From positions 1 to 64,000 of the forward strand of contig NZ_JACHNU010000007.1 of NCBI RefSeq assembly GCF_014199525.1: a DNA stretch of 64,000 nt, given 5' to 3'. A model generated the notes under the pieces. It worked only from the letters and a program-made list of their open reading frames with translations, was not told the DNA's origin and made no database searches. Shown in pieces: positions 16,836 through 32,238 of this stretch (its first letter is position 1; each line of letters opens with the position of its first letter). The stretch is from Conexibacter arvalis. GTDB taxonomy: Bacteria; Actinomycetota; Thermoleophilia; Solirubrobacterales; Solirubrobacteraceae. The position numbers and the translations under genes are program-made.

Positions 16836-16845
16836 CTCGATCGAT

Positions 16846-16880
16846 GGCGCTCTGTACAGGACCATCCTGTGCAGAGCGCC
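16846..16880. terminator. Bidirectional hairpin terminator
   Basis: 15-bp stem GGCGCTCTGTACAGG / CCTGTGCAGAGCGCC with a 5-base loop and a single mismatched (G-T) position. It lies between the convergent thiolase and SDR genes. Confidence 0.8.
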
Positions 16881-16889
16881 GGTGATCGC

Positions 16890-29816: not shown

Positions 29817-31061
29817 ATGCGCAACCGCACGCTCCATCAGCTGCTCCGGGCGTTCACCGAGGACGCCGGCCTCCAGCTGGCCGCTGAGACCGCGCGCGGT
29901 GCCGAGATCCCGTTCGAGGTCGTCGAGGAGCCCGGCGCCCGCTCAGCGCTCTACTGCTACCGGCCGCTGACAGGCAACTTCATCCGCTCGCGCATGGGGA
30001 TCCTCGACAGGCTCCCGTCCTACCTGCCGGCGGCCCGCACGATCGGCGCTATCGCGGGGCTCGACGGCTACCTGCGCAAGCGCGGCGAGCCGCGGATCCC
30101 GCCGGACGAGCGCGAGCGGGCCGACGCCGCCCTGCGCTCCTTCCTCTCCGCCGTCTACGCCGACACGAGCGAGTTCGGCTTCCAGGCCGATCGCTTCGAC
30201 GCCGCCTACGCTGAGCTCGAGGCCGCGCTCTACGAGGGGCGCCAGGTCGCGCTCGTCGTCGCGCCGGTGCTCGGGCTGGCGCTCGAGTCCGACGACGTGC
30301 CGCTCGGCGAGGGGCTGTCGCTGGCGCGCGGGGAGAGCGTCCCGGACGTGCCCCCGGAAGCCGTCTGGTCGACGCCCGGCGAGGTCGAGCACGGCAGCGT
30401 GCTGGCGGTGCTGACGCTCGAGGGCGAGCGGCTCGCCGGCCCGCCGCTGACGACGGCGCGGACCCGCTTCCGCCGCCTGCTCAGCGCACTGCGGCTGTTC
30501 GACGAGGGCGTCTACGCGCTCGGGCCGGTCGCGTGGGCGCGGCTCGACGCCGGGCCGTGGCAGGTGGTGCCGCTCGGCGCCAGCGGCCGGGCCCGCGGAC
30601 GCCGTACGCTCGTGCTCGAGCAGGAGGACGAGCTGCGCGCCTTCTGCAACCTGATCGCGCGACGCACGCCGCGCGCGGGCGAGGTCGCGTGGGCGCTGAG
30701 CCGCTTCGAGATGGCGCGGGAGCGGGTCGTCCCGTTCGAGTCGCTGACCGACGACCTGCTCGCCCTCCGCGCGCTGCTCGAGCCCGAGGGCCCGGACAGC
30801 GGCCGGCTGGCGCAGCGGCTGTCGGTGATCTGCGCCCAGCCGGAGGAGCGCGCCGCGCTCGCCGAGCGCATCGCGCGGGCGGTGACGCTGGAGCGGGCGG
30901 TGATAGCGGGGCTGGCGCAGCCCGGCGAGAACGTCGACCGCCTCGTCGAGGAGATATCGGGCCACCTGCGCGCGCTCCTGCGCGACATCCTCTGCGGCCA
31001 CCTCGACAGCGACGTCCGATCGCTCGCCGACGAGCTGCTCGCCGAAGCGGCCGCGGCGTAG
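29817..31061 (+). CDS. Hypothetical protein with HEPN-like C-terminal region (414 aa)
   Basis: No confident family. The N-terminal 60 residues are conserved-looking (M-R-N-R-T-L-H-Q-L-L-R-A-F-T-E-D-A-G). The middle part is beta/alpha mixed. The last 100 residues (R-L-S-V-I-C-A-Q-P-E-E-R-A-A-L, then L-E-R-A-V-I-A-G, then a long helix ending L-R-D-I-L-C-G-H) resemble Apea-like HEPN domains, in which the order is R-x-A-x-L-L, E-E-R, Y-x-x-R-S-x-I-V-H-G. The R-x-x-x-x-H ribonuclease motif appears lost (E-R-A-V-I-A-G). ATG 29817 lacks a clear ribosome-binding site, so the start is uncertain. The neighbour is an AbiEi-DUF559 nuclease gene, which hints at a defence setting. Confidence 0.5.
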   Translation: MRNRTLHQLLRAFTEDAGLQLAAETARGAEIPFEVVEEPGARSALYCYRPLTGNFIRSRMGILDRLPSYLPAARTIGAIAGLDGYLRKRGEPRIPPDERERADAALRSFLSAVYADTSEFGFQADRFDAAYAELEAALYEGRQVALVVAPVLGLALESDDVPLGEGLSLARGESVPDVPPEAVWSTPGEVEHGSVLAVLTLEGERLAGPPLTTARTRFRRLLSALRLFDEGVYALGPVAWARLDAGPWQVVPLGASGRARGRRTLVLEQEDELRAFCNLIARRTPRAGEVAWALSRFEMARERVVPFESLTDDLLALRALLEPEGPDSGRLAQRLSVICAQPEERAALAERIARAVTLERAVIAGLAQPGENVDRLVEEISGHLRALLRDILCGHLDSDVRSLADELLAEAAAA

Positions 31062-31131
31062 CCGCCGCCGCGCAGAGACGGCGCGCCCCGCGCCCCACAC
31101 GCCACATCTTCCTTGCCACGCTGGCCGGGTG

Positions 31132-31204
31132 CCCGATCCGCGCCACGAGCTGCGTCAATCTGCCTACCGCAGCGGTAGGCAGATTGACGCAGCTCCCGAT
31201 CGGG
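31132..31204. repeat. 49-bp perfect palindrome inside a larger hairpin
   Basis: Two 24-base arms (31147-31170 and 31172-31195; first arm starts GAGCTGCGTCAATC and ends TACCGC) are exact reverse complements around a single A. Outside them CCCGATC (31132-31138) and GATCGGG (31198-31204) pair again. It ends 2 bases before the start codon of the next gene. Within 31062-31206 nothing else is seen. Confidence 0.95.
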
Positions 31205-31206
31205 TG

Positions 31207-32238
31207 ATGGCGCGGTGTGCAGATCGCCAGCACGGTGTGGTGAGCCGCGCGCAGCTGCTCGACATGGGGATGACGGCGCGCGTGGTCGACCGGCGGGTGA
31301 GAGCAGGGTTGCTCGTGAGACTCCACCGCGGTGTCTACGCCGTCGGGCACCGTCGGCTGACGCGGGAGGGGGAGTGGCTGGCGGCGGTGCTCGCCGCCGG
31401 GCCCGGGGCGGCGCTCAGCCACCGCAGTGCGGCCGCGCTCCACGGGCTTCTGCCTGAACGGGGGAGACGGGTCGACGTCACGACCGCGGCACGACGACGG
31501 ACGACCAACTGGGTCGAGGTCCACACCGTGCGGCAGCTGGGGGCCGAGGACGTGATCGGACGGGCGGGAATACCGGTGACGACGATCGCGCGGACGCTGG
31601 TCGACCTCGCCGGGCTGGTCGCGCGCGACGACCTCGAGCGGGCCGTCAACGAGGCCGACGTGCTGAGAGCGCTCGATGTCGAGGGGGTGCTCGCGTGCGC
31701 GGCGCGGGTGCGCGGGCGGCGGGACGGGGGACATGCGGCGCTGGAGGCGGTGTTGGCACGACACCACGGCCCGGTGGTGCTGCGCTCCGGGCTGGAGCGG
31801 CGTTTCCGGGCGCTGCTGCAGGCGCACGGCCTGCCGGCGGCCGAGCACAACGTGCGTGTCGGACGGTGGGAGGTCGACGCGCTGTGGCGGGCCGAGCGGC
31901 TGGCGGTCGAGCTCGACAGCGCGAGATTCCACGACACCGCCGCCGCGCGGGCGCGCGACGTGCGGAAGAGCGCCGAGCTGGAGGCGGCCGGCTGGACCGT
32001 GCGCCGCTACCGCAAGCGACACCTCGTCGGCGCGCGTGGGAACGCGACCGCCGCCGAACTGCGCGGGCTGCTGGGGAGGGCGGCCGCTGATGGGGCGGGG
32101 CCGGAGGGCGGCGTGGCGGCGGCCGCCGGTGGGGCGGGGCCGGTGGGGGCGGCGCGCGCTGGTGGGGCGGGCGATGTGGGCGCAGCGGCGGACGGCGGTC
32201 AGCCGGAGGGCGTGGGGTCGGCGGGGCGGACGCGGTAG
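31207..32238 (+). CDS. AbiEi-type N-terminal domain fused to DUF559 PD-(D/E)XK nuclease (343 aa)
   Basis: Residues 1-60 match the AbiEi antitoxin-type winged helix (Q-H-G-V-V-S-R-A-Q-L-L-D-M-G then L-H-R-G-V-Y-A-V-G-H). Residues about 75-160 continue as the AbiEi-like middle domain (A-L-S-H-R-S-A-A-A-L-H, then R-T-L-V-D-L-A). The C-terminal part is DUF559: G-R-W-E-V-D-A-L-W and L-A-V-E-L-D-S give the D and E-x-D elements of a PD-(D/E)XK nuclease, with F-H-D-T and R-D-x-x-K following. The last 50 residues are Gly/Ala low complexity. Such fusions are frequent in actinobacteria and their role is unsettled. ATG 31207 was chosen because the longer frame would translate the palindrome. It overlaps the convergent cyclase gene by 40 bases. 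Confidence 0.78.
   Translation: MARCADRQHGVVSRAQLLDMGMTARVVDRRVRAGLLVRLHRGVYAVGHRRLTREGEWLAAVLAAGPGAALSHRSAAALHGLLPERGRRVDVTTAARRRTTNWVEVHTVRQLGAEDVIGRAGIPVTTIARTLVDLAGLVARDDLERAVNEADVLRALDVEGVLACAARVRGRRDGGHAALEAVLARHHGPVVLRSGLERRFRALLQAHGLPAAEHNVRVGRWEVDALWRAERLAVELDSARFHDTAAARARDVRKSAELEAAGWTVRRYRKRHLVGARGNATAAELRGLLGRAAADGAGPEGGVAAAAGGAGPVGAARAGGAGDVGAAADGGQPEGVGSAGRTR

Follow-up and report, generated by a model that had tools for sequence, protein, structure and literature searches.

A perfect palindrome heading an AbiEi-DUF559 nuclease gene belongs to a dispersed, probably mobile repeat family and is probably a cognate site of the nuclease

We analyzed a stretch of DNA of 64,000 nucleotides (hereafter, the window) in which an AbiEi-DUF559 nuclease gene encoding 369 aa occupies 31129..32238 of the plus strand, with its probable start at GTG 31129. 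An AbiEi-like DNA-binding region, opening with an AbiEi_4 wHTH, spans residues 27-197 (31207..31719, plus strand) and was matched by Pfam PF13338 (E = 6e-11) and by two PADLOC AbiEi models, the better one covering residues 27-183 (E = 9e-29) and the second residues 27-197 (E = 3e-26). Judged from these profiles, it is a winged-helix region of the antitoxin type. A PD-(D/E)XK nuclease domain (REase_MTES_1575/DUF559) was assigned to residues 227-300 (31807..32028, plus strand) from profile matches and conserved residues. Specifically, E223, D250, E261, and D263 are conserved in 54 to 56 of 56 homologues (window protein included), and H268, too, is conserved across the AbiEi-DUF559 family. An earlier sequence-only reading had called the gene an AbiEi-DUF559 nuclease, a description backed by the AbiEi_4, MTES_1575, DUF559, and PADLOC AbiEi profiles.

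The window protein has no sequence relative among solved structures, and a single-sequence structure prediction (mean pLDDT of 41) was left out of the analysis. Viral contigs contained a single weak relative of the gene, and plasmids, where it is rare, a single distant one. No AbiEii nucleotidyltransferase adjoins the window gene, whose neighbors are a cyclase and a gene without a profile match in Pfam, NCBIfam, or PADLOC. The upstream ORF at 29817-31061 (414 aa), earlier called HEPN-like, had no match in any of these three collections.

At the 5' end of the nuclease gene lies a perfect palindrome of 49 bp (31147..31195, unstranded), the gene-linked copy of a family that we refer to as the window family. 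As the sequence-only reading had described, it consists of two 24-nt arms (31147-31170 and 31172-31195) that are 100% complementary and are separated by a single A. The additional 7-bp flank pairing is also present, with CCCGATC at 31132..31138 as its left half and GATCGGG at 31198..31204 as its right half (both unstranded), and is private to the window copy, neither half having a counterpart at the other copies. Folded as RNA, the 49-mer reaches -45.8 kcal/mol (z = -11.9), which 0 of 200 shuffles equaled, and the palindrome has the highest palindrome score in the 64-kb window. The lower GC content noted for the palindrome relative to its surroundings was borne out across gene-linked palindromes, which average 59% GC compared with ~74% in flanking loci.

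The reading's placement of the palindrome just ahead of the start codon probably needs correction. From GTG 31129, the reading frame runs open across the palindrome, which in frame reads ELRQSAYRSGRQIDAA, and in sister genes the phase of the dyad center relative to the reading frame is fixed (identical in 26 of 26 genes examined). On these two grounds, the window palindrome most probably lies within the coding sequence, at its 5' end. The fixed phase also favors GTG 31129 as the start of the window gene, where the central codon is AGC. An ATG codon occupies the dyad center in 10 of the 26 genes, which together with the constant phase fits a palindrome laid over the translation start, at least half of it translated.

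Most AbiEi-DUF559 genes of the genus likewise have a hairpin at their heads, each a different one. Among 31 such genes, the folding z of the 5' hairpin had a median of -5.0, compared with -0.7 for a control of random stretches (P = 5e-16), and in 21 of the 31 it fell under the control's 1st percentile. Clear gene-head palindromes measured 33-55 bp and ended 25-47 nt upstream of a conserved QHG codon. The genome that contains the window has eight AbiEi-DUF559 genes; the window palindrome occurs only at the window gene, and the sister genes carry other palindromes at the same 5' position. The link of the palindrome to AbiEi-DUF559 genes, which the sequence-only reading had proposed to check, stands for position and type of structure and fails for sequence, each gene having a private palindrome. 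Furthermore, more similar proteins tended to have more similar palindromes (Mantel r = 0.26, P = 2e-4). Across the phylum, about 5 of the 28 best homologues sampled had such palindromes at the gene.

Palindromes flank the gene on both sides at five loci, L103 and L118 (both in the own genome), L095, L206, and L207, whereas the window gene has a 5' copy only and no downstream copy. In the family of L118, the outer stem is conserved while the inner stem varies yet remains paired, with nine compensatory pairs, a number that 0 of 500 shuffles reached. Template switching between the arms could be an alternative source of this inner-stem pattern. Covariation in the window family gave a weak signal only.

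The sequence-only reading had proposed a search of genomes with the 24-base arm. When we allowed up to three mismatches, the arm recovered nine palindromes in the genome to which the window belongs; a tenth, degraded one emerged with a pattern that was shorter and degenerate. The arm matches were paired; lone matches all had three mismatches and occurred at about the control level. No arm pair with up to two mismatches was found in 60 relatives (6 of the same genus and 54 others), and neither the exact palindrome nor its exact core pattern turned up in viral contigs or among 84,980 species genomes, a set that may not include the genome of the window or those very close to it. Many copies at unrelated sites, which the reading took as the mark of a mobile repeat and as a refutation, are what the ten scattered copies represent. 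Since repeat and nuclease are linked, however, the mobile-repeat and nuclease-associated readings are compatible.

Beyond the 49 bp, the sequence is mostly unrelated between copies, and flanking columns across the ten copies are unconserved; GCGCCAC precedes four of them. With a simple codon-position gene call, six copies were placed in intergenic DNA, each with a stop codon within about 40 bp, and four inside genes, including the window gene. The three other host genes, named by reading the sequence with no database search, are DhaM/PTS-like, ATP-NAD-kinase-like, and a CobU/CobT-like fusion. All four genic copies share one frame, yielding the peptide ELR[QR]SAYRSGRQID or DLRRSAYRSGRQID. In the kinase-like protein, relatives in G004 and G017 are gapped at the copy, and the linker in G005 is unrelated; in the cobalamin (CobU/CobT-like) protein, the copy sits in a variable linker. 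We found no target-site duplication common to the ten copies, no T-run downstream of the palindrome at any of them, and no GTAG-type tetranucleotide at the hairpin foot among them.

Other palindrome families were dispersed in the same manner. The whole-genome copy search covered the window family, and the other families were searched in two partial genomes and one distant genome. For the own genome, we examined the window together with 1.2 Mb of contig C1 (1.26 Mb in all); here, the palindromes of five of the eight own genes had further copies (E of 1e-7 to 1e-17), compared with 0 of 19 foreign gene palindromes at 1e-5; the remaining three genes had no dispersed copy within the 1.26 Mb examined. 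In genome G003 (0.8 Mb), four of six own palindromes were dispersed and 0 of 21 foreign ones. Pooled, dispersal was seen for 9 of 14 own-genome genes and 0 of 40 foreign gene-genome pairs (Fisher's P = 3.8e-7; relatedness among the genes means that the pairs are not fully independent). One such copy lies in the window itself at 16838..16888 (unstranded), flanked by a thiolase gene and an SDR gene that converge on it. Its arms are 83% complementary, and it is cognate to the AbiEi-DUF559 gene at C1:973121. For these other families, a simple gene call placed 21 of 24 copies between genes, in all gene orientations, and three inside ORFs. Dispersed copies of several families retain an ATG-like loop, which suggests that they originated from gene heads.

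Several further palindromes were seen during these searches. Two palindromes within 250 bp of each other at G000:C1:846059-846307 consist of long runs of G and of C and are possibly an assembly artifact. No cognate gene was identified for the palindrome at G000:C1:1068938-1068992 (TGTTCCGGAAATCGCC...GGCCGATTCCTGGAACA), which maybe belongs to a family whose gene was lost. At L080:1838-1882 (G011, another genus), a palindrome of 45 nt, CGCTTGGCGCCTTATCCGCACATAGTGCGGATAAAGCGCCAAGCG, is close to a cobalamin-gene junction, and a perfect 30-bp palindrome, GCATCAACGAAGTGATCACTTCGTTGATGC, lies at L028:304-333 (G047, another family of the order).

A distant actinobacterium, G076, whose genome is a single contig of 2.5 Mb and which belongs to a different family of the phylum, has its sole AbiEi-DUF559 gene between near-identical 50-bp palindromes, with related palindromes at at least 12 further sites. 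The copy at C1:1779331 is missing as a block from the aligned, 84%-identical site in G346, a sister species of the same genus, and other sites are common to both; this difference could reflect deletion instead of insertion. In G346 and G348, palindromes are present and the AbiEi-DUF559 gene was not detected; these assemblies are 72% and 79% complete, so that the gene may have been lost or may be missing from the assembly. The G076 family showed no mid-stem compensatory changes above shuffles.

From these observations, we consider it probable that the palindrome has two roles: it would be the recognition site cognate to the nuclease gene at whose head it stands, and also a small, dispersed, probably mobile element. 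Two proposals of the sequence-only reading survive in modified form. The "end of a small mobile element" becomes a dispersed repeat in its own right, and the "nuclease target or marker" becomes a gene family carrying cognate palindromes that are its predicted targets. The evidence suggests small mobile DNA of a kind not described before, which is read by its own nuclease. We infer that the AbiEi part binds the palindrome, that the nuclease cuts there, and that the enzyme drives the spread. In this model, each AbiEi-DUF559 gene of this lineage would encode an AbiEi-type winged-helix region joined to a PD-(D/E)XK (Vsr-like) nuclease and would carry a private palindrome of 33-55 bp at the translation start, with some genes having a second copy behind them. 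The AbiEi part would read the palindrome as an inverted-repeat duplex or an extruded hairpin, the nuclease part would cut at it, and repair or strand transfer would copy it to new sites, producing a REP/RAYT-like population of non-autonomous palindromes bound to one gene. Several observations count against this model: palindromes in G346 and G348 with no gene detected, no target-site duplication seen, such palindromes at about 5 of 28 sampled homologues, three own genes with no dispersed copy in the stretch examined, a window gene with no downstream copy, a polymorphic site that could be a deletion, and no mid-stem compensation above shuffles in the G076 family.

HUH TnpA-REP proteins are the one enzyme class for which dispersed palindromes with a dedicated gene have been described, and the mechanism by which such palindromes spread is still unsolved (PMC8266576). 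As in those REP/RAYT systems (REPtrons), palindromes of 20-50 nt are scattered in the genome (PMC8266576), here as the ten copies and the other families. The chromosomal cognate gene is flanked by its palindromes there (PMC8266576); here, this is so at the loci with palindromes on both sides, and the window gene has the 5' one only. In both systems, one gene corresponds to many palindromes, gene and palindrome diversify together (PMC8266576), and the gene is rare on plasmids. In contrast to REPtrons, the enzyme here is AbiEi plus a PD-(D/E)XK nuclease and not an HUH Y1 transposase, a GTAG-type foot tag is absent, families have about ten copies and not hundreds, and copies also lie in frame within genes. 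With neither an HUH transposase in the three genomes searched nor a foot tag, the system is REPtron-like in its working yet is not a REPtron. A RAYT as mobilizer was rejected: HUH Y1 transposase (PF01797) had no match in G000, G003, or G076, and control genomes were positive.

The main rival is autoregulation, through an operator or a regulatory hairpin such as the sequence-only reading had offered. The AbiEi of Streptococcus agalactiae binds its own promoter at two inverted repeats, each of 23 bp and separated by 3 bp, and of two AbiEi proteins, neither bound the repeats of the other (PMC7319586). An AbiEi winged-helix protein with an inverted repeat of ~49 bp near its own start is common to the AbiE type IV toxin-antitoxin system (PMC7319586) and, as predicted by profile, to our locus; the geometry is 23+3+23 there (PMC7319586) and 24+1+24 at the predicted site here, both spanning 49 bp. 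The two differ in that our protein is fused to a nuclease and lacks an adjoining AbiEii nucleotidyltransferase, and in that our palindrome sits at the coding start and is scattered over the genome. By analogy, the AbiEi part would repress its own gene at the palindrome, and the scattered copies would be the further sites of a regulon, with nothing moving. Such an operator would be in keeping with the AbiEi models over residues 27-197, with a palindrome extending over the translation start in the genes that have ATG at the dyad center, and with a private palindrome for each gene, which matches the lack of cross-binding between the two AbiEi proteins (PMC7319586). However, a regulon does not predict in-frame copies within unrelated coding sequences, copies gained or lost as whole blocks, or copies between convergent genes and at gene 3' ends as well. 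Inner stems that vary but stay paired, as at L118, are unneeded for sequence-specific duplex binding, and the fused nuclease is left unexplained. As the whole explanation, an operator and its regulon are unlikely, and autoregulation via the same site may coexist with mobility.

Less probable still is an independent repeat, of the MITE or Rickettsia-palindromic-element type, that is spread by another enzyme and that AbiEi-DUF559 genes merely acquire or keep at their heads. This alternative fails to predict the cognate pairing by gene and by genome, the constant phase and position at the gene head, and a palindrome similarity that follows protein similarity, and Y1 transposase is absent from the three genomes searched. 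MITEs differ further by target-site duplication, of which no shared case was seen at the ten copies here. Palindromic repeats in frame in unrelated protein genes are nonetheless the hallmark of the Rickettsia elements (PMC10969869), matched here by three ORFs plus the window gene, and the relatives of G076 that have palindromes and no detected gene fit a repeat of that kind. The Rickettsia elements are about 150 bp (PMC10969869) compared with 49 bp here, where the host is of a high-GC actinobacterial type and the repeat is tied to a specific nuclease gene. Altogether, we regard an independent repeat as improbable.

Ordinary hairpins, that is, transcription terminators or translational attenuators alike by convergence, are very improbable: the six intergenic window-family copies do lie near stop codons, and L198 (phylum level) resembles a typical terminator with a T-run, but 49 near-identical bases recur at unrelated sites without a T-run, and some copies sit within coding sequences or separate divergent genes. 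For the same reasons, a Rho-independent terminator was disfavored for the ten copies, and the sequence-only reading's terminator for the upstream gene is unlikely.

Vsr-like endonucleases such as Caulobacter VsrA are also PD-(D/E)XK nucleases with DUF559 (PMC12907096), whereas those considered here are fused to AbiEi and paired with palindromes; in the literature searched, we found no paper linking DUF559 to palindromes. More tentatively, and with slightly less than even confidence, we propose a new class of mobile DNA in which an AbiEi-guided PD-(D/E)XK nuclease spreads palindromes by a mechanism unrelated to HUH transposases and in which the palindrome doubles as the switch of the gene over its start, so that one site would serve both spread and self-control. 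If true, a second, unrelated enzyme would be tied to its own palindromes, and such systems would have arisen more than once. It would also suggest a function for AbiEi-DUF559 genes, which are common in actinobacteria yet unexplained and whose small gene-palindrome pairs would be suited to direct tests of binding and cleavage.
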